A stretch of DNA of 64,000 nucleotides from Pedobacter yonginensis (GTDB lineage: Bacteria; Bacteroidota; Bacteroidia; Sphingobacteriales; Sphingobacteriaceae), in assembly GCF_003173595.1 (NCBI RefSeq), contig NZ_QGNZ01000001.1, positions 1,426,001 through 1,490,000 of the forward strand, in the 5' to 3' direction. The position numbers were made by a program, and so were the translations under genes. Below, one piece after another: positions 38,481 to 63,449 of this stretch. The notes beneath the pieces were generated by a model. That model had not been told where the DNA came from, searched no databases, and saw only the letters and a program-made list of their open reading frames with translations. Numbering within the stretch: the first letter of the stretch is position 1; the number at the start of each line of letters is the position of its first letter.

Positions 38481-38554
38481 GGGCCTATAGCTCAGTTGGT
38501 TAGAGTAGAAGACTCATAATCTTTTGGTCGCTGGTTCGAGCCCAGCTGGGCCCA
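38481..38554 (+). tRNA. tRNA-Met (anticodon CAT)
   Basis: A full cloverleaf of 74 nt: acceptor GGGCCTA/TGGGCCC with discriminator A, D-arm GCTC...GAGT, anticodon stem GAAGA/TCTTT with loop CTCATAA (anticodon 38515-38517), and T-arm GCTGG-TTCGAGC-CCAGC. The 3' CCA is not encoded. The anticodon stem lacks the three G-C pairs of initiators, so it is elongator Met, or less likely the lysidine-modified Ile tRNA. Confidence 0.92.
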
Positions 38555-38555
38555 C

Positions 38556-54283: not shown

Positions 54284-55261
54284 CTAATTTAACGTCCAAA
54301 CTGCATCTACAAAATAGCCTTTAGCATCAGAGAAATGTGTAAGCACATTAAAACCTGACGATTTTGCCAATTGCTCAATTTCTTTTAAAGAATACTTTTG
54401 AGAAATTTCCATAAAGATATATTCATTTGCCGCAAAGCTGATGCGTTCCTTTTGGCCGATTTTTACCTCTTGATTTTTCAAACTAATAAGATAGCTTTTG
54501 CAAGCGCCGGTTTCAGGATCGTAAGAAGCATAGTGTTCAAAACCATCCAAATCAAAATCGCCCTCCAACTCCCTGTTAATGCGTTGTAACAGATTCAAGT
54601 TAAAAGAACTTGTTATCCCTGCCTCATCATCATAAGCGGCTAAAATTTGCTGTGGATTTTTCTTTAAATCGAAGCCAACAATAAGCATATCGCCTTTCGA
54701 AAGCAGATTTCTAAGGTCGATGCAAAAATCGCGGGCTTCATCTACATTCATATTCCCAATGTTTGCCCCCATAAACAACATTACTTTTCGGCGACTAGAA
54801 ATTTCAGTTGCCCGTTTAAGCATCGCAAAATAATCTCCATTTAAGCCTTGTAAATTTAGTGTTGGGAGTTTCAAAGGCAGATTTTCTTCCAAATCTGCTA
54901 TGACGTGTTCAGAAATATCAATTGGAAAATAGGTAAAATCATGCTTTTGCTCGATTAACGCTTTAAGTAGATGTACGGATTTTGTTGCATCACCCGCTCC
55001 AAGTTCAATTAAATCAAATGGGTCGCCTGGTGCGGTAATCACCTTCGCCAATTGGGCAGTTTGATTGGAAAGAATATCCATTTCCGCATCGGTTAGGTAA
55101 TATTCTTCCATATTCATAATCTGTTGGAAGATGTAATCGCCTTTTTCATCGTAAAAATATTTGGACTGCATAAACTTCGGTTCAGATTTTAAGCCGATTA
55201 ATGTTTCTTCCAAAAATTGTGTTTTGTTTGTTGTTGTTGTTTCAGTGGTAATCGTGCTCAT
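54284..55261 (-). CDS. egtD: L-histidine N-alpha-methyltransferase (EgtD-like)
   Basis: 325 residues, the usual EgtD length. It trimethylates histidine to hercynine with SAM. Motifs: MQSKYFYDEKGDYIFQQI and MEEYYLTDAE, the EgtD signature; LIELGAGDATKS for SAM; FMGANIGNM; GFDLKKNP; and the C-terminal ISQKYSLKEIEQLA. The N-terminus is Thr-rich low complexity. It is 9 bp downstream of the EgtB-like gene, in a five-gene operon. The reaction product feeds that enzyme. Confidence 0.92.
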   Translation of the reverse strand: MSTITTETTTTNKTQFLEETLIGLKSEPKFMQSKYFYDEKGDYIFQQIMNMEEYYLTDAEMDILSNQTAQLAKVITAPGDPFDLIELGAGDATKSVHLLKALIEQKHDFTYFPIDISEHVIADLEENLPLKLPTLNLQGLNGDYFAMLKRATEISSRRKVMLFMGANIGNMNVDEARDFCIDLRNLLSKGDMLIVGFDLKKNPQQILAAYDDEAGITSSFNLNLLQRINRELEGDFDLDGFEHYASYDPETGACKSYLISLKNQEVKIGQKERISFAANEYIFMEISQKYSLKEIEQLAKSSGFNVLTHFSDAKGYFVDAVWTLN

Positions 55262-55270
55262 AAAATTTGA

Positions 55271-56419
55271 TTATTTAACCAAGCGAATGCCTGTGAATTG
55301 CCACCTTAGGGGTGGATGAAAAAAATTGCGATACGTAATGCGACTGTGATTTTCGGGTGTAGCTACAGATGCACCACGCAAAACCTTCTGATTAACCATA
55401 AATTTTCCATTGTATTCGCCGATTGCTCCCGGCGCTTTACTAAAACCTGGATAAGGTAAATATGCGCTTTCTGTCCACTCCCACCGTTGCCCCCAATTGA
55501 AGTGCTTTGCCGCAATTTCCCATTCAAATTCTGTTGGTAATCTCATACCCTTCCAGCTTGCAAAAGCATAGGCTTCGTAATAGCTTACATGGGCTAAGGC
55601 TTGGTTCGGGTTTAACTTTTCTAAACCTGCAAAAGTATAATTATGCCACGCTCCATCAATATTATGCCAATACATAGGTGAAACTACATGATTGGTTTTC
55701 ACCCAGTCCCAACCTTCTGCATGCCAATAGTTAAAGTTCTGATAGCCACCTGCATCAATAAATTCTAAATATTCGGCATTGGTAATCAAAGTTGTGCTTA
55801 TGGAAAAAGCGTTCAGATAAACCTTATGCCTGTTAAGTTCGTTATCAAAATGGAAATCGTTTCCTTGATAACCAATTTCATAAACTCCCTCTTCAATGTT
55901 AATAAAACCGACTTCTGGTTTAAGTAAATCTACTTCCTTCCAATTTGTATCGTAAGCAGGGAAAAGTGGATTGTTGCCTAAAATGTATTTAATATCTGTA
56001 ATTAGAAGTTCCTGATGTTGCTGTTCATGATTAAAACCCAATAAAATTAGTTCTATCAGAGTGGCATCAATGTCGGAATTTAAAAATTTAGTCATGGCTT
56101 CATCCACGTATGCCCGGTATCGATACACATCGGCTACGCTTGGTCGGCTTAAATTTCCCCGATCGGTACGAATCACGCGATTGCCTACAGTTTCATAATA
56201 GCTATTGAAAACGTAATTGTAATTTTCATCAAATTCTTGATAGGCTGGCGCGTGTGGTTTAAGAATGAAAGTTTCGAAAAACCAAGTGGTGTGCCCCAAA
56301 TGCCATTTCGGCGGACTTACATCCACAATTGGCTGAACCACATAATCTTCAGTGGCTAATGGCGCACAAATTTTTTCGGAATATTTCCTGATCTGAGTGT
56401 ATTGTTCGGCCAGATTCAT
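55271..56419 (-). CDS. egtB: Ergothioneine sulfoxide synthase-like non-haem iron enzyme (EgtB-like)
   Basis: 382 residues. A DinB-like N-terminal domain supplies the iron triad: His43 in KWHLGHT and His131/His135 in NHEQQHQE. A formylglycine-generating-enzyme (FGE) type domain follows (GMRLPTEFEWEIAA, WEWTESAYLPYPGF, VLRGASVATPENHSRITYRNFF). It joins a sulfur donor to hercynine using oxygen. Without nearby egtA or egtC, use of cysteine directly (type II) is likely, an inference. It lacks the C-terminal methyltransferase of OvoA. Its start shares one base with the transporter stop. Confidence 0.9.
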   Translation of the reverse strand: MNLAEQYTQIRKYSEKICAPLATEDYVVQPIVDVSPPKWHLGHTTWFFETFILKPHAPAYQEFDENYNYVFNSYYETVGNRVIRTDRGNLSRPSVADVYRYRAYVDEAMTKFLNSDIDATLIELILLGFNHEQQHQELLITDIKYILGNNPLFPAYDTNWKEVDLLKPEVGFINIEEGVYEIGYQGNDFHFDNELNRHKVYLNAFSISTTLITNAEYLEFIDAGGYQNFNYWHAEGWDWVKTNHVVSPMYWHNIDGAWHNYTFAGLEKLNPNQALAHVSYYEAYAFASWKGMRLPTEFEWEIAAKHFNWGQRWEWTESAYLPYPGFSKAPGAIGEYNGKFMVNQKVLRGASVATPENHSRITYRNFFHPPLRWQFTGIRLVK

Positions 56420-57990
56420 TAATTTTTATCTTGATAGTTTGCTAGGTCTGTAATGGTATTAACATTTAAGGCTTTTGATTGTTTTTGCCTCATCATAAGC
56501 GCATAAGAATTGTTAAATCCTATCGGCTTTAACCATTTTATTTTGAATTTGTTTGCAAATTCTCGGCTTACGTAATTGTAGGTTCGGTCTTTATCGTGTG
56601 CAATTTCTTTTGATAATTTCGGATTTGGCTGCAAGAGCACTAAAAGCCCCGTTCCGGTGTATTCCGGATAGAAATCAATTTGGTCGTTCACCAAAGCATC
56701 AAAGCAAATTTTTGTACCGCCTAAACCTGTTTTGGTAGAAACGCCATAAGCCGTATTGCCCTGAATCAACATGCTGTACATTTCTGCTAAAATATATTGC
56801 TCTCCAAAAATTTTAGAACCAATTCTCACCGTACCTTCTTTGCCATTTCTTGGCGCTTTGTACAAGTTGTTACGAACCAAAAAATCTTTTGCCACACGTT
56901 CTGGTGCCTGATGAAGATAATCAGTTCGATAATTTAAATCGGTCATAATCGAATCGGTAATCTTTCCGGATAAGAGATTGAGCACCTTTTCCAATTCGGG
57001 AAACTTATTTAAAGAGCTTGTGCGTACAATTGGTGCCGCGTAGTAGGGCGGAAAAATTCCCTTGTCATCTTTTAAAATTGTTAGGTCAAAGGCTTTCAAT
57101 CTGCCGTCTGTTGAGTAACCGCTAATCACATCAAGTTCTTTTGCATAAGCCGCCTTGTACATTACAGCATCGCTAATCACAATGGTATGGATTTTAAGTC
57201 CGTATTCAGATTTCAATCCCAAATCTCCATCTTGCCTACCCATAAATTCGGGCGTAAAACCTGCGGTTAGTTTCGAGCCATATGCCGAAGGTAAAATGTA
57301 AAATATACTTAACACAATAATCAGCAAAGGAAAAACATAGAGCACTTTTTTGAGCTTTTTAAAATCGAGTTTCTGGATGATGGATAAAAGAAAATCCAAG
57401 ATCACGGCCAACAGCGCTGCCGGGATTGCACCTGCTAAAATCATATTGGTGTTATTTAAGGATATACCTCCAAAAATAAATTCGCCCAATCCACCCGCAG
57501 CAATGTACGATGCCAAAGTAGCTACCCCCACATTAATTACAGTTGCGGTGCGAATGCCAGCAAGAATTACGGGCATAGCCAAGGGCAATTCTACTTTGAA
57601 TAAAATTTGCATTTTGCTCATGCCAAGCGCTCTTGCCGATTCAATAATGTGCCGATCTATCCCGATAATGCCCGTATAAGTATTTCTGATGATGGGCAGC
57701 AGGGCATAAATTAATAGCGCTACAATGGCTGGCTTCGCGCCAATGCCTAATACAGGAATCATAAAACCCAATAATGCAATGCTCGGTATGGTTTGCAAAA
57801 TGCCTGCCAAGCCCAAAATGCTACTGGATAACTTTCGTTTTCGGGCAATTAAAATGCCTAAGGGAAGACCGATGATAATGGCAAATAACAAGGAAATAAA
57901 GGTTAAACCCAGATGCTGTAAAGTTTGATTAAACAGTTTATCGGATTGCTCATGCATGAAGCTCCATAAACTTTGCTGTTGCTCATTCAT
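56419..57990 (-). CDS. ABC permease fused to a circularly permuted OpuCC-type binding domain (EgtU-like)
   Basis: 523 residues. The permease (1-208) has five to six helices and the ATPase-contact motif ESARALGMSKMQILFKVELPLAMP (117-140). A further helix (about 214-234) leads to a binding domain. Its motif order is unusual: FTPEFMGRQDG (245), YSTDGRLKAFDL (292), KDDKGIFPPY (307) and VAKDFL come first, then IGSKIFGEQYI (390), YPEYTGT (441), GFNNSYAL (491) and ITDLA (513). In OpuCC/OsmF the second block precedes the first. The family carries betaines, and EgtU variants carry ergothioneine; position next to egtBD favours ergothioneine. Confidence 0.88.
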   Translation of the reverse strand: MNEQQQSLWSFMHEQSDKLFNQTLQHLGLTFISLLFAIIIGLPLGILIARKRKLSSSILGLAGILQTIPSIALLGFMIPVLGIGAKPAIVALLIYALLPIIRNTYTGIIGIDRHIIESARALGMSKMQILFKVELPLAMPVILAGIRTATVINVGVATLASYIAAGGLGEFIFGGISLNNTNMILAGAIPAALLAVILDFLLSIIQKLDFKKLKKVLYVFPLLIIVLSIFYILPSAYGSKLTAGFTPEFMGRQDGDLGLKSEYGLKIHTIVISDAVMYKAAYAKELDVISGYSTDGRLKAFDLTILKDDKGIFPPYYAAPIVRTSSLNKFPELEKVLNLLSGKITDSIMTDLNYRTDYLHQAPERVAKDFLVRNNLYKAPRNGKEGTVRIGSKIFGEQYILAEMYSMLIQGNTAYGVSTKTGLGGTKICFDALVNDQIDFYPEYTGTGLLVLLQPNPKLSKEIAHDKDRTYNYVSREFANKFKIKWLKPIGFNNSYALMMRQKQSKALNVNTITDLANYQDKN

Positions 57991-58945
57991 GGGCCTTATG
58001 GTATTTATATTGATTAAAGGCTTGTGTTAATTGCTGAAAATCAATCGTTTTATGTTCGCTTTGTATATTTGCGACTTGAATTTTGCCTGATTCTACCTTG
58101 CGGATGCTTTCCATTGCATCCCAAATGCTTGGGTTCAATTGGTCTGCCTTTTCTGTTTCTAAACTTTGTTGTTTGGGTAAGAAATCCCACAAATCGTTAA
58201 TCTTAATCACTTTAAACTCGAGCGCCAAACGCTGCCCATCTAAAAATTTTCTTGCAAAATCATTTGTGGGATGGTACAGTAATTCTTTGGGTGTGCCTAT
58301 TTGAACAATTTCGCCCTTATCCATCAAGCAAATGCGATCGGCGAGTTCAAACGCTTCCTGAACATCGTGCGTAACCATCACAATGGTTTTTCTCTTTAAT
58401 TCTTCTAAGGCTTTAAATTCTGCTTGAATGCTCGATCGGGTTACATTATCAAGGGCACCAAAGGGTTCATCCATTAAAAGTACCGCCGGATCTGTAACCA
58501 AGGCGCGGGCCAAACCCACCCTTTGTTGTTGCCCCCCACTTAACTCATGCGGAAACATGGTTAAGCACTGTTTTGGCAAGTGTAGTTTTTCAACCAATTC
58601 TGTAATCCGTTGATTGGTTTTTATAGCATCCCATTTCAATAATTTAGGTACAACGGCAATATTTTCGGATACGTTATAATGCGGAAAAAGACCGATATTT
58701 TGCATCACATAGCCAATGCCTCGACGTAAAATTTCGGGGTTTTGGTGGGTGATGTTTTGACCGCCGATTATGATTTCGCCAGCATCGGGTTCAATTAGGC
58801 GATTAATCATTTTAAGCGTTGTTGTTTTACCACAACCGCTGGTGCCTAGCAATACCAAATTTTCCTTTTCGTTAACTTTAAAAGAAATTTGTTTCACAGC
58901 CTGTGTGTGCCCAAAACTTTTACTAACGCCTTTTAGTTCAATCAT
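57983..58945 (-). CDS. ABC transporter ATPase, OpuCA/EgtV-like
   Basis: 320 residues. Walker A LGTSGCGKTTTLKMI, Q-loop VMQNIGLFPHYNV, signature LSGGQQQRVGLARAL, Walker B VLLMDEPFGALD and switch His VTHDVQEAF are complete. A C-terminal extension (about 240-320) has no clear CBS domain. It energises the permease encoded next, overlapping it by 8 bp. The osmoprotectant-type ATPase group includes ergothioneine transporter EgtV. Confidence 0.92.
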   Translation of the reverse strand: MIELKGVSKSFGHTQAVKQISFKVNEKENLVLLGTSGCGKTTTLKMINRLIEPDAGEIIIGGQNITHQNPEILRRGIGYVMQNIGLFPHYNVSENIAVVPKLLKWDAIKTNQRITELVEKLHLPKQCLTMFPHELSGGQQQRVGLARALVTDPAVLLMDEPFGALDNVTRSSIQAEFKALEELKRKTIVMVTHDVQEAFELADRICLMDKGEIVQIGTPKELLYHPTNDFARKFLDGQRLALEFKVIKINDLWDFLPKQQSLETEKADQLNPSIWDAMESIRKVESGKIQVANIQSEHKTIDFQQLTQAFNQYKYHKAHE

Positions 58946-58953
58946 TTGTTTGG

Positions 58954-60339
58954 TTAATCTTCTATTTTCATAAATAGATTGTTTAACGATTCGGAATAGG
59001 TTGGATGCGCAAATACACAGTACCTAATCCGATCATACGTAATTCCGCCTTCGATAGCCAATTGGAGCACCGACATAATTTCGCCACCTTCTGGCGCAAG
59101 AATAGAGGCACCCAATATTTTTTTTGTATCTGGATCTACAATGGCCTTCATCACACCCAAAGTTTCATTGGTTTCTATCCCTCTTGCCACTTGCGACATT
59201 GGAAGTTTAGCCACTTTATATTTAATTCCTTTTTCTTTCGCTTCGTTTTCCGATAGTCCGATTCGCCCCAATTGTGGGTCGGTAAACATACAGTAAGGCA
59301 CTGGCCTATTGGAAATGCTGTAATTTGTTTTTTCGATTAAGTTACGATAAACTATGGTGTAATCGTTGTAGGCAATATGGGTAAAAGCTGGTCCACCTTT
59401 AACATCGCCCAAGGCGAAAACGCCATCAACATTGGTTTCTAGTTTCTTATTTACAACAATGTAGCCTTTTTCATCGGTTTTTATTCCCGCCAAATCCAAA
59501 CCTAATTTTTCGGTTTGAGGTGCCCTACCTGTGGCAATTAGTACATGACTGCATATTATTTTATCGCTTTTTGTTCCAGATTTTACATCAATAATCAGAT
59601 GATTTTTCTTTTCACTTTCGATGTGTGCAATGTGAGTTTCGGTTAAAATGTCGATGCCCTCTCCTTTTAAAATTTCACTCAATTCATCCGAAATATCTTC
59701 ATCTTCGCGAGACATGATGCGTTTAGATTTTTCGATGATGGTTACTTTACTTCCAAAACGGCGGAACATTTGGCCAAATTCTAAACCAATGTAATTACCG
59801 CCTAAAACCACTAAATGTTCGGGAATTTCTTCTAAATCGAGAATACTGGTTGAGGTTAGGTAATCTACTGATTCGAGGCCATCTACCTCTGGAATAACGG
59901 TTTTAGCACCTGTATCAATAAAAATCCAATCTGCAGTGAGTTTTTCTTCGGTACCATCCTGTGCGGTAACCGTAATTTCTTTAGGGGCCGAAAATCTGGC
60001 TTCGCCGAAAATAATTTTGAGGCCCTTTGTAGTTTCTAAGCCTTTTTGCGCACCGTTTCTAAATGAGTTAACGATTTCATCTTTACGTCCTTTTATTTTC
60101 TTTAAATTAACCTTAATTTGTCCAATCTCTACACCCAATTCATTAGCCTTTCTGGCTTGATATACGGCACGGGCACAGGCAACCATGGCCTTTGTTGGGG
60201 TACAACCCACATTTATGCAGGTACCACCGATATTATTTTTTTCAATTATTGCAGTTTTCTTTCCGGCTTGTGCTAGTTTTTTAGCTAGGGGAACTCCAGC
60301 CTGACCTGAACCGATTATAATGGCATCAAAGTGTTTCAT
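58954..60339 (-). CDS. FAD-dependent pyridine-nucleotide disulfide oxidoreductase
   Basis: 461 residues. FAD-binding IIGSGQAGVPLAKKLAQAGKK, redox pair GGTCINVGCTPTKAM (CxxxxC), NAD(P)-binding VVLGGNYIGLEFGQMF, FALGDVKGGPAFTHIAY and the catalytic HPTYSESLNNLF base are all present. It lacks both the N-terminal metal domain and the C-terminal Cys pair of mercuric reductase, so a low-molecular-weight disulfide substrate is more likely. First gene of the ergothioneine-type operon, 8 bp before the ATPase gene. Reduction of an ergothioneine-linked disulfide is a hypothesis. Confidence 0.88.
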   Translation of the reverse strand: MKHFDAIIIGSGQAGVPLAKKLAQAGKKTAIIEKNNIGGTCINVGCTPTKAMVACARAVYQARKANELGVEIGQIKVNLKKIKGRKDEIVNSFRNGAQKGLETTKGLKIIFGEARFSAPKEITVTAQDGTEEKLTADWIFIDTGAKTVIPEVDGLESVDYLTSTSILDLEEIPEHLVVLGGNYIGLEFGQMFRRFGSKVTIIEKSKRIMSREDEDISDELSEILKGEGIDILTETHIAHIESEKKNHLIIDVKSGTKSDKIICSHVLIATGRAPQTEKLGLDLAGIKTDEKGYIVVNKKLETNVDGVFALGDVKGGPAFTHIAYNDYTIVYRNLIEKTNYSISNRPVPYCMFTDPQLGRIGLSENEAKEKGIKYKVAKLPMSQVARGIETNETLGVMKAIVDPDTKKILGASILAPEGGEIMSVLQLAIEGGITYDRIRYCVFAHPTYSESLNNLFMKIED

Positions 60340-60462: not shown

Positions 60463-60873
60463 CTAACTTTGATTATTGGGTTTTCGGGCGAGTTTTTTCT
60501 CGCGAAGAATAATCTCGTTTATGGCATTTAAAAATTCGGCGAAAAGCACTGGCTTAACGAGATATTTATCACAGTCAACTGTAAAGGCATCGAGTGCATA
60601 TTCTGGATAACTGGTTACGAATATTAAATATTTAACCTTATTGCGTAGCACTTTTGCCACGTCTATTCCAGAAATATCCATCCTAATATCAAGAAATAGG
60701 AAATCGATTAAATCACGCTCAGCGATTTGATTGATGGCTTCTTTTGGGTCGGTAAATGTGTATGTTATCTCTAATTTATCAATTTTAGAAATGTAATTGC
60801 TCAGGATATCAACAGTCATTCGGTCATCATCAATAACTGCACATCTATATTTGGGTGAGGTTGAGGCTTTCAT
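60463..60873 (-). CDS. Stand-alone response-regulator receiver
   Basis: 136 residues. Acidic DDD (15-17), phospho-acceptor Asp62 (FLFLDIRMDISGI), VTSYPEYALDAF and the Lys in LVKPV are present; the sequence resembles receivers of LytTR regulators but no LytTR domain follows. It is 154 bp upstream-clear of its neighbours and no kinase is adjacent. Confidence 0.88.
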   Translation of the reverse strand: MKASTSPKYRCAVIDDDRMTVDILSNYISKIDKLEITYTFTDPKEAINQIAERDLIDFLFLDIRMDISGIDVAKVLRNKVKYLIFVTSYPEYALDAFTVDCDKYLVKPVLFAEFLNAINEIILREKKLARKPNNQS

Positions 60874-61028
60874 CTATTCGGTTATATGCTGCCAAAAAGC
60901 AAAGCGCGAGCCAAGAACCGCAAAACAACTTATAAGAATCCTTAATTGGCTCAATAGCTAGGGAGAATCGATTTTATCATCTTGGCCGACCTTTAAACAA
61001 GTCTTTCAAATGCCTTTGATAACATGGC

Positions 61029-61547
61029 TTAATTGTTAACGCCAACATTATAATTCTTGAGCATCTTTTTCAGCAAAATTCTGGCAACATGGATTTTGGT
61101 TTTCACCGTACCCAATGGGATTTTCATTTCATCTGCAATTTCATGGTATTTGTAACCCTCAAAATATCGGGTAAAACAAATTCTGCCATCTTCGGGCAAA
61201 AGTGAAAGTGCCTTTTGGATGTCTTCCATCATAAACTTATTCGTACCCTTATTGATGGTTGCGCTTTGAAAAAGCTGTACCGACGTGAGTTCTTCACCTT
61301 GAGTAACCACCTCATTTTTACGCTTAACTTTATGATAATGATTTAGGAAAGTGTTTTTTAGAATGGTAAAAAGCCAAGCCCTTACATTACTGCCCAACTC
61401 AAATTTATTGGAAAAGCGAAATGCTTTCATAAAGGTATCTTGCACTAAGTCTGCTGCATCATCTTCATCTTTGGTATAAGCAAAAGCACGATCAAAAAGA
61501 GATTGTTTGTACTGATAGATGTCCAGTTTAAAGTTTAAGCTTTCCAT
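61029..61547 (-). CDS. ECF-type RNA polymerase sigma factor
   Basis: 172 residues. Region 2 (DRAFAYTKDEDDAADLVQDTFMKAFRF; RAWLFTILKNTFLNHYHK) and region 4 (ALSLLPEDGRICFTRYFEGYKYHEIADEMKIPLGTVKTKIHVARILLKKML) are complete. No anti-sigma gene is adjacent; Bacteroidota ECF factors of this style often stand alone. Target promoters unknown. Confidence 0.94.
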   Translation of the reverse strand: MESLNFKLDIYQYKQSLFDRAFAYTKDEDDAADLVQDTFMKAFRFSNKFELGSNVRAWLFTILKNTFLNHYHKVKRKNEVVTQGEELTSVQLFQSATINKGTNKFMMEDIQKALSLLPEDGRICFTRYFEGYKYHEIADEMKIPLGTVKTKIHVARILLKKMLKNYNVGVNN

Positions 61548-61679
61548 AGGTATATTCTTTTGATTGAATACCTAACAACTACTAAACTGTTTTAGTTAAG
61601 GGAGAAATACCCGTTTTTTTACGGAATATTTTTTCATCCTAAAAAAGGGGCAAAAAACGGGGGTATTTTGAATAGAAAT

Positions 61680-62330
61680 TTACTGAATGTAACCATTTCT
61701 CATGGCAAAACGGATTAAGGAGACTGAGTTTTTTGTCCCGGTTTTGTTAATCAATGCCTCTCTTTGACTCTCTACCGTTCGCCTGCTAAGGTAAAGCTGA
61801 TTGGCAATTTCTTGGTTGGTTAAACCATCGGCTATAAGCTTAAGTACGTTAATTTCGCGCTCCGAGAAATCGATGTGATGGTTCGAATTTTCGGATAATC
61901 TGCCCAAATATTTATTAAATCTTTCGAGTATAGATATGCACAAATTGGACGATAAATAGCGTTTGCCCTTCATAACATGTTGCAGGCAAAACAGCAATTC
62001 ATCCGCTTCAACATTCTTGGTTAAGTAACCAAAAGCCCCTGAAACAAAAGCATTTGAAGCATATTTATCTTCTTCTAAAATGGAAAGTAAAACCACTTTT
62101 GTTTCATTTCCTTTTTCCTTTAACGCTTTGATTAAACTTAGCCCATCCATCTCCGGCATCACCACATCTGATAAAATAATGTCAGCTTCTACACCCTCAT
62201 CCAAAACCCTTAAAACTTCGAAGCCATTTTCTACTTCTGCTACTACTTTTATGCCCTCAAATTTTTCTAAAAGTGCGTGTAACGAAGTACGAATAATGTG
62301 GTGGTCATCCACTAGGATAATTTTAATCAT
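61680..62330 (-). CDS. NarL/LuxR-type response regulator
   Basis: 216 residues. Receiver with VDDHH (7-11), Asp55 in ILSDVVMPEMDG and a Lys in LTKNVEADE; C-terminal LuxR HTH (FSEREINVLKLIADGLTNQEIANQLYLSRRTVESQREALINKTG). The N-terminal DDHHIIR fits this subgroup. It is 39 bp downstream of the PAS kinase gene, its likely partner. Confidence 0.95.
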   Translation of the reverse strand: MIKIILVDDHHIIRTSLHALLEKFEGIKVVAEVENGFEVLRVLDEGVEADIILSDVVMPEMDGLSLIKALKEKGNETKVVLLSILEEDKYASNAFVSGAFGYLTKNVEADELLFCLQHVMKGKRYLSSNLCISILERFNKYLGRLSENSNHHIDFSEREINVLKLIADGLTNQEIANQLYLSRRTVESQREALINKTGTKNSVSLIRFAMRNGYIQ

Positions 62331-62369
62331 AACCCAAATTTAATTACGGATTTTTGAATATTAAAATGC

Positions 62370-63449
62370 CTACTTTGGAAGCTCGATGTAAAAGGTGGTT
62401 CCGGTGCCAACTTTACTCTTAAACCAAATTTTCCCTCGGTGTAAATCAACAATTGCTTTAATAATTCGCATTCCGAAACCGCCACTTTCTTCTCCCTTTA
62501 AACCGGGTCTGAGTGCTTCTTGAATTCGATCGAAAAGTCCATCTTGTACTTCTTCCGGAATACCAATACCATTATCTGCCACAGATATAATTACCGAATT
62601 GGGATGTTCTTCGATGTGAACGTGGATGGCTCCATTATCATCTGTAAATTTTAATGAATTGGAGATTAGATTGTTAATCACCTGAAGAAATTTCATGCTG
62701 TCCACATGAATGTAAATTTTATCCGCAGAAGTAGTAAAGCTAAATTGTTTGGTATCGCTCAATCTAGATCTTTTGTAAAACCGAACCACATCCCTAAGTT
62801 CCCAAACCAAATCGGCCCGCTCTTTTCCAATTTCTATCTCCGCTGATTTTAAGAACTCCTTATTAATCATGCTTCTAACCAAAAGTAAGTTTCTGGAGCA
62901 CATATCCTTAATAAATTCTAGCGAGTTCATCATGTAGCGATCGCCTGTTTGGGCTATGCCATCTTCCATTGATGACGCCGCTAAACTCATCATGCCAAGG
63001 GGTTCTTTAAGGTCGTGAGCCAATACTTCTAAGGTGATGTTTTTTCGGGCGTTAATTTGCTCAATATGAATTTTGTTGTGGCGCATTACGGTTATATCTT
63101 CTACCGTACCTACTAAAACGAGCTTATGATCCGCAGCAATTGGCGCAACATTTACACGTACATATTTTTCTCTATTGATTTCATGTAGTAAACGAAATTC
63201 ATATTTTTTTGAAATTCCATCTGTTAAACATTCTTCGTAACAGCTAATCACATGCTCTACATCTTCGGGGTGAATTTTTGCGAGCAGGGATTGCGCTTTA
63301 TACTTAAAATCAATTGTTTGCGTTTCAAATATCCTTGAAAAGGCATCGTTAACGTATTCAAATTGCTTTATAGAATGGTTGTAAATAAAATATCCATCAT
63401 TGGAAAGTTCACCTAGCTTATAAAAGAGGTCGTTGCTAAATTCAGACAT
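62370..63449 (-). CDS. PAS sensor histidine kinase
   Basis: 359 residues, no membrane segment, so a cytoplasmic sensor. PAS/PAC domain (about 10-125; GYFIYNHSIKQFEYVND, YVRVNVAPIAADHKLVLVGTVEDIT), H-box EVLAHDLKEPLGMM (His145), N-box LQVINNLISNSLKFTDD, G1 VADNGIGIP and G2 GGFGMRIIKAIVDLH. The PAS ligand is unknown. Next gene is its LuxR-type regulator. Confidence 0.95.
   Translation of the reverse strand: MSEFSNDLFYKLGELSNDGYFIYNHSIKQFEYVNDAFSRIFETQTIDFKYKAQSLLAKIHPEDVEHVISCYEECLTDGISKKYEFRLLHEINREKYVRVNVAPIAADHKLVLVGTVEDITVMRHNKIHIEQINARKNITLEVLAHDLKEPLGMMSLAASSMEDGIAQTGDRYMMNSLEFIKDMCSRNLLLVRSMINKEFLKSAEIEIGKERADLVWELRDVVRFYKRSRLSDTKQFSFTTSADKIYIHVDSMKFLQVINNLISNSLKFTDDNGAIHVHIEEHPNSVIISVADNGIGIPEEVQDGLFDRIQEALRPGLKGEESGGFGMRIIKAIVDLHRGKIWFKSKVGTGTTFYIELPK

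Follow-up and report, generated by a model that had tools for sequence, protein, structure and literature searches.

Ergothioneine synthesis through EgtB and EgtD is known from Mycobacterium and Chloracidobacterium, while import of the thiol is known from the EgtUV system of Helicobacter and from EgtU (EgtUBC/EgtUA) of Streptococcus, Listeria, and Enterococcus, which combines an ATPase with a fused permease and binding domain. Homologs of SpEgtU are described as almost confined to Firmicutes (PMC9732360). In synthesis, the lyase EgtE releases ergothioneine sulfenic acid, which is reduced to ergothioneine given a reductant and without one disproportionates, the end products being ergothioneine and the corresponding sulfinic acid (PMC4493562). 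How cells maintain reduced ergothioneine is an open question, and the mammalian selenium thioredoxin reductase is the sole enzyme that does so directly in the literature examined (PMC8868364). Here we describe a block of five genes (positions 54284..60339, minus strand) in a stretch of 64,000 nucleotides from the soil bacterium Pedobacter yonginensis, called the window below (genome G000 of our sample, contig C1, positions 1426001-1490000, strand +). On balance, this conserved block probably makes ergothioneine, recaptures it via an EgtU/ProX-type importer and keeps it reduced by a reductase of its own. It is like the described EgtB-EgtD pathway in the EgtD family and motifs, in the three histidine ligands of EgtB and in the tyrosine pair of the Chloracidobacterium enzyme (Cth EgtB), but it contains no egtA, egtC, or egtE and has the reductase and an ATP-binding cassette (ABC) importer built in. 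No description of an operon of egtB, egtD, transporter, and reductase was found in the literature searched, which covered titles and the starts of abstracts and left most subscription journals outside.

The Gene Block and Its Conservation in the Genus

The five open reading frames (ORFs) all start with ATG and are spaced by 8, -8, -1, and 9 bp, the ATPase gene overlapping the following permease/binding gene by 8 bp. Coordinates and gaps in the ORF list are those of an earlier, sequence-only reading of this DNA, and Pfam domains agree with its family labels for all five genes. They encode, all from the minus strand, a flavin disulfide reductase of 461 aa (58954..60339; Pyr_redox_2 and Pyr_redox_dim), a ProV/OpuCA-type ATPase of 320 aa for an ABC transporter (57983..58945; ABC_tran), a fused permease and binding domain of 523 aa (56419..57990; BPD_transp_1 and OpuAC), the ergothioneine sulfoxide synthase EgtB with 382 aa (55271..56419; DinB_2 and FGE-sulfatase, and the model TIGR03440), and an EgtD-type histidine N-alpha-methyltransferase of 325 aa (54284..55261; Methyltransf_33, PF10017). 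We infer that they share a transcript; a promoter and terminator scan came out no richer than shuffled sequence (20 sites against a mean of 21.4, and 6 against 7.7) and is uninformative on transcripts.

We have searched 60 genomes of the genus, 54 of them with a completeness of 90% or more and a contamination of 5% or less, and compared the neighborhoods of their egtB-egtD pairs. EgtB is present in 38 of the 60 (27/36 plus 11/24), taking weak partial matches as absent and the broken gene of G002 as present. The arrangement goes beyond chance: all five genes stand in one order in 32 of these 38 genomes, window included, a count that takes in G002 (L029, 7792-8954), where egtB is split into two frames inside an otherwise complete block. 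Elsewhere the parts are rearranged or missing: G032 (L043) has reductase-egtB-egtD and a transporter nowhere in its genome, G012 and G028 have reductase and transporter at one place and egtB-egtD on another contig, G461 keeps reductase, transporter, and egtD together with EgtB on another contig, and in G026 and G454 egtB-egtD is present and neither reductase nor transporter was found. The transporter occurs in 35 of the 60 genomes and the reductase ortholog (52–100% identity, the next matches reaching at most 35%) in 37, and all 35 transporter-positive genomes have both EgtB and the reductase. Full-length transporter homologs are thus found in 35/38 EgtB-positive vs. 0/22 EgtB-negative genomes and the reductase ortholog in 36/38 vs. 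1/22 (Fisher tests, not corrected for phylogeny). Conserved order and co-occurrence with EgtB support the functional coupling of the five genes claimed in the sequence-only reading, while G452, which keeps the reductase ortholog without EgtB, speaks against it.

EgtB and EgtD

The assignment of EgtB with the ligands His43, His131, and His135, made already in the sequence-only reading, is borne out. The protein scores 543.4 bits on TIGR03440, well over the NCBI equivalog cut-off of 360, and is matched at E values of 3e-118 to 4e-118 by the solved EgtBs 8qf6, 6qki, and 6o6l, one of them named EgtB (Cabther). The three iron ligands align with positions 62, 153, and 157 of the 8qf6 chain, in what we take to be the numbering of the iron histidines in Cth EgtB. 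Tyr74-Tyr75 align with 8qf6 93-94, the place of Tyr93-Tyr94 in Cth EgtB, which have an active-site role (PMC10903977), while about 22 residues of 8qf6, between query residues 306 and 308, are missing in the window protein. It is highly improbable that the product is selenoneine and the enzyme a SenA: the SenA model does cover nearly the whole of the 382 residues, the protein being SenA-length, yet its 357.1 bits miss the cut-off of 420 whereas the EgtB score far exceeds its own, and SenA matches at 1e-36 against 3e-118 for the solved EgtBs. On these model and PDB-match scores the SenA identity was dropped.

The proposal that EgtB uses cysteine directly receives indirect support in that its closest solved relative is of the Cabther type and the one GCS2 protein of the genome is of YbdK type. 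According to a review, the Chloracidobacterium EgtB has a preference for cysteine (PMC10903977). The GCS2 search of the genome for EgtA, which left aside the other GshA Pfam families, gave this single YbdK-type carboxylate-amine ligase (543.4 bits on PRK13515, cut-off 371). It is encoded between an ATP-grasp-like and an amidotransferase-like gene, both recognized by eye (L145:417-3434, G000:C10), in what may be a pathway for a small peptide or a thiol.

EgtD, as claimed from sequence, is supported through its family (328.4 bits on PF10017, cut-off 23) and its substrate-binding motifs, since IGN, YDDxAGxT..FN, and ExS.K, which are presumably the histidine contacts, align with the solved EgtD 4uy6. 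All six PDB matches are histidine methyltransferase EgtD-type entries. Against this identity stands the score on TIGR03438, 287.1 bits, which just misses the NCBI equivalog cut-off of 290.9, by 3.8.

Distribution Across the Phylum

In a phylum sample of 395 genomes, for which the best three to four candidates per genome were scored so that a few misses are possible, EgtB was found in 112, a reductase homolog (E ≤ 1e-100) in 37 and a transporter with swapped domain order (see below) in 22, EgtB co-occurring with 30 of the 37 and 19 of the 22. Beyond the genus there are 109 EgtB loci, and for 60 of them we read the flanks, some of which end at contig ends; two loci (G403 and G341) were added because a transporter lay near. 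The full block appears in six of the 60, which are those of all six EgtB-positive genomes sampled from the other genera of the family. The seventh reductase-linked locus, in another family (G426, L067), has the reductase beside egtB-egtD and the transporter on another contig. Hence the complete block characterizes the family, and partial versions occur outside it. In a tree built from the 54 reductases of the loci that were fetched, most of them from one genus, the egtB-linked label needs four changes, at least three of them forced by well-supported branches, and the G426 sequence, itself beside egtB-egtD, sits on a long branch apart from the main group of linked reductases. EgtU-like genes also lie in other arrangements beside or near egtB-egtD (L054, L058, L059, L096, L107, L134, L135). 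In L096:5497-10127 and L107:6097-10879 the egtB-egtD pair is accompanied by an EgtU-like gene with the binding domain before the permease, unlike both SpEgtU and the window.

Several of these observations weigh against a functional tie among the genes. Outside the genus the transporter adjoins EgtB in only 11 of the 60 loci and the reductase in 7, most lacking both; seven of the 37 genomes with reductase homologs have no EgtB; and in G136 and G419 egtD is linked to the transporter with no EgtB found in the genome. These last two loci (L127, 3913-8210, of G136 and L126, 6614-14388, of G419) have egtD (395 and 407 bits, respectively, over the cut-off) next to a gene for a DUF427 protein and to an EgtU-like transporter with swapped domain order, and would involve either a different sulfur enzyme or the handling of hercynine. 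In L134 (G403), too, DUF427 adjoins egtD, and a Sortilin/Vps10-like repeat protein of about 1050 aa lies between egtD and the transporter at L126:9528-12677 and L134:6917-10069.

We consider it improbable that the block is simply inherited as a neighborhood within one family, reflecting common descent or horizontal transfer and not function. The Fisher values ignore phylogeny, one genus supplies most rows and, among the loci read, the full block is confined to the family. However, the gene order is kept down to 54–57% identity although the flanks vary, and partial and rearranged versions exist in other families. In addition, the split genes of G012, G028, and G461 still co-occur, and therefore the tie to EgtB outlasts linkage.

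The Reductase

A CxxxxC pair together with a C-terminal dyad of His and Glu marks the reductase as a member of class I of the flavin disulfide reductases. It shares full-length homology with the class of RclA, mercuric reductase, and dihydrolipoamide dehydrogenase, together with Cys41/Cys46 and His445-Glu450, which we take to be the redox pair and C-terminal dyad of the class and which are all four invariant in 22 aligned homologs. Its best PDB match is 6kgy, presumably RclA, followed at lower scores by 8uub, 8ajj, and 8ajk, to which we would ascribe a hypothiocyanite role. The top NCBI model is the unnamed PRK06370.1-4 (546.7 bits, under its cut-off of 629), and the scores for RclA (396.2, cut-off 740), MerA (385.1, cut-off 454.45), and hypothiocyanous acid reductase (380.3, cut-off 650) also stay below. 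Among the 25 NCBI models listed only one cut-off is passed, that of TIGR01350 lipoamide dehydrogenase, by a margin of 2.3 bits (411.1 vs. 408.8). We do not class the protein as a dihydrolipoyl dehydrogenase, seeing that PRK06370.1-4 scores 136 bits higher and that the egtB-linked orthologs L067 (381.3) and L043 (401.6) miss the TIGR01350 cut-off. Many orthologs are publicly named mercuric reductase, an identity that we discarded: the protein falls under the MerA cut-off and lacks the C-terminal cysteine pair that marks MerA.

Conservation ties the reductase to egtB-egtD and says nothing on its substrate. We infer re-reduction of the thiol, the likely substrates being oxidized forms of ergothioneine, including the sulfenic acid from the C-S lyase. 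A role in biosynthesis as well as recycling is suggested because the reductase accompanies egtB-egtD with or without the importer, and because the sulfenic acid released by EgtE needs a reductant. The mammalian selenium thioredoxin reductase makes the action of a flavin disulfide reductase on oxidized ergothioneine chemically possible, but its activity is reported to depend on selenium (PMC8868364) and the window protein has no such C-terminal center. The same source also reports that glutathione reductase acts on ergothioneine disulfide only with glutathione (GSH), and that thioredoxin reductases without selenium reduce it little or not (PMC8868364), both of which argue against the activity proposed here.

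A reductase that is not specific for ergothioneine, being instead like lipoamide dehydrogenase, like RclA or hypothiocyanite reductase, or active on some other low-molecular-weight disulfide, and that merely shares oxidative-stress regulation with its neighbors, is possible although rather unlikely. The TIGR01350 cut-off passed, the sub-threshold scores on RclA and hypothiocyanous acid reductase, and the order of PDB matches favor it, as do free-standing relatives in EgtB-negative genomes; the neighbors of five such relatives (L136, L144, L139, L140, and L130), examined together with one neighbor of the G032 reductase, share no theme. The marginal pass on TIGR01350 is, however, not repeated by the egtB-linked L067 and L043, and more distant homologs also exist in the genus genomes, where the ortholog itself follows EgtB with the contrast given above. 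Moreover, the reductase adjoins egtB-egtD without an adjacent transporter in two families, and in the 395-genome sample homologs of at least 50% identity occur in 12 EgtB-positive genomes and in no EgtB-negative one.

The Transporter

The ATPase reaches 302.4 bits on TIGR01186 proV, with a cut-off of 326.6. Its partner is the 523-aa protein, whose binding domain is circularly permuted, its halves standing in swapped order, a feature absent from the sequence-only reading and deduced here mainly because the protein aligns to SpEgtUC in two blocks. Residues 240–378 (56857..57273, minus strand; 122.5 bits) correspond to the C-terminal half of SpEgtUC (chain 138–276) and are placed first, whereas residues 388–523 (56422..56829, minus strand) correspond to the N-terminal half (chain 8–134) and are placed last. 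The EgtU order of permease, D1 start, D2, and D1 end is therefore not the one seen here. The fold model is middling (mean predicted local distance difference test, pLDDT, of 70), and VIA-align with this model returned no EgtU or ProX row among the 50 matches listed, which is not evidence of a difference.

The closest solved binding domain is nevertheless that of EgtU. Of 14 positions that contact ergothioneine or act as switches, ten are identical with SpEgtU, including all nine contacts of the aromatic cage, carboxylate, and imidazole (K242, T275, T296, N339, Y341, E375, R379, Y419, and Y443 in SpEgtU), and residues 388–523 contain K393, I394, F395, T426, Y444, T447, F492, N494, and Y496. I243 and N339 are kept in the EgtU state, while AfProX has P and D at these positions. 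In contrast, T274 of SpEgtU is G here, and the EgtU-vs.-ProX switches G244, F293, and Y337 are F395, Y444, and F492, the ProX (glycine betaine) state, invariant across 46 aligned sequences. These switches count against ergothioneine as the substrate, the more so as affinity in SpEgtU falls about 100-fold with G244F and about 10-fold with F293Y (PMC9732360). The protein differs from the glycine betaine importer OpuA too, with 16% identity in the binding domain and an aromatic cage of Tyr type, where PMC9732360 gives a Trp type for OpuAC. A further difference from EgtU is that the window host is itself a predicted ergothioneine producer.

The EgtUV-like importer of the sequence-only reading thus holds for the matched positions and fails for the three switch residues and the domain order; with the switches in the ProX state, we do not file the protein as EgtU, merely as working like one. 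Its sequence is of the EgtU/ProX type with the circular permutation of OpuA-type proteins, and it likely imports ergothioneine. The switch residues would fit another possibility, which we regard as less than likely, that biosynthesis is as described and the transporter carries glycine betaine, choline, hercynine, or another betaine instead. Against this, every transporter-positive genome of the genus has EgtB (35/35), the binding domain is closest in sequence to EgtUC and retains I243, N339, E375, and R379, and two EgtU-type layouts, one with swapped halves behind the permease and one in the usual order ahead of it, adjoin egtB-egtD.

Candidate C-S Lyases

The EgtE model (TIGR04343) found nothing over its cut-off of 400 in the window's genome, the best score being 52.4 bits. 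The absence of a nearby egtE noted in the sequence-only reading is true for the window, but class-V pyridoxal phosphate (PLP) genes adjoin the block in some relatives and one lies elsewhere in this genome. EgtE belongs to the same class-V PLP family as the two types of candidate lyase described here, neither of which reaches its cut-off.

The gene for one type, of 389 aa, precedes that of the reductase in the same orientation in G006, G013, G018, G019, G023, and G024. The distance is 14 bp in G013, G019, and G023, between 54 and 74 bp in G024 and G006, and about 360 bp in G018, where a small ORF intervenes. The single representative scanned scores almost equally on EgtE (136.6 bits) and SufS (137.1), and cysteine desulfurases are the nearest solved proteins. 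An example of this EgtE/SufS-like gene lies at L022:3094-4263, with equivalents in L021, L023, L024, L046, and L047, and it is likely a sixth gene of the block in that sub-lineage.

The second type, of about 360 aa, is convergent with egtD in 19 genomes and occurs in 33/38 EgtB-positive vs. 4/22 EgtB-negative genomes of the genus. Among the five EgtB-positive genomes without it, three have the EgtE-like 389-aa gene ahead of the reductase at a distance of 14 bp; of the other two, G460 has a 43% homolog of the 389-aa type elsewhere and G454 has neither. In the window's genome it is a 358-aa protein (G000:C1:468700-469758; L146:6698-7774), unlinked to the block, that keeps the SGYKW lysine motif and may be the missing C-S lyase. 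Two observations argue otherwise, namely that it gave no match to the EgtE model at E 0.001 and that among solved proteins it stands nearest to cysteine desulfurases and C-DES.

Surroundings of the Block

Upstream of the block (window 60463-63449) we find a response regulator, a sigma-factor-like gene, a LuxR-type regulator, and a sensor kinase, the first assigned with Pfam and the rest judged from their sequence. Across 28 loci, the window flanks (response regulator, sigma factor, LuxR, and MaoC) come together again only in the nearest relative, G007, while a single sigma-factor match also occurs in L041. Rfam at gathering thresholds gave nothing over the window but a tRNA-Met at 38481-38555.

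Proposed Function and Significance

As we picture it, EgtD would trimethylate histidine to hercynine, and EgtB with O2 would join hercynine and cysteine into the sulfoxide, which would be cleaved to the sulfenic acid of ergothioneine by a PLP C-S lyase encoded elsewhere (perhaps the 358-aa candidate). With NAD(P)H, the reductase would then turn this acid into ergothioneine and subsequently do the same for the disulfide, and the importer would return leaked or environmental ergothioneine to the cell. A more ambitious version, a closed ergothioneine economy with synthesis, a permuted EgtU/ProX hybrid importer, a new non-orthologous C-S lyase, and the first dedicated bacterial reductase, which would complete synthesis at the sulfenic acid that this lyase releases and afterwards recycle the disulfide, is one we put forward only tentatively.

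The conserved block likely points to a dedicated bacterial ergothioneine reductase. A reductase that tracks egtB-egtD, once in a genome without the importer, opens both the upkeep of the reduced thiol and the fate of the sulfenic acid to study with one purified enzyme. Similarly, the swapped binding domain offers a natural test of the residues that set specificity for ergothioneine vs. betaine. Finally, these bacteria would be producers that retain an importer gene within the block and, if this is true, recapture matters even for a home-made thiol.

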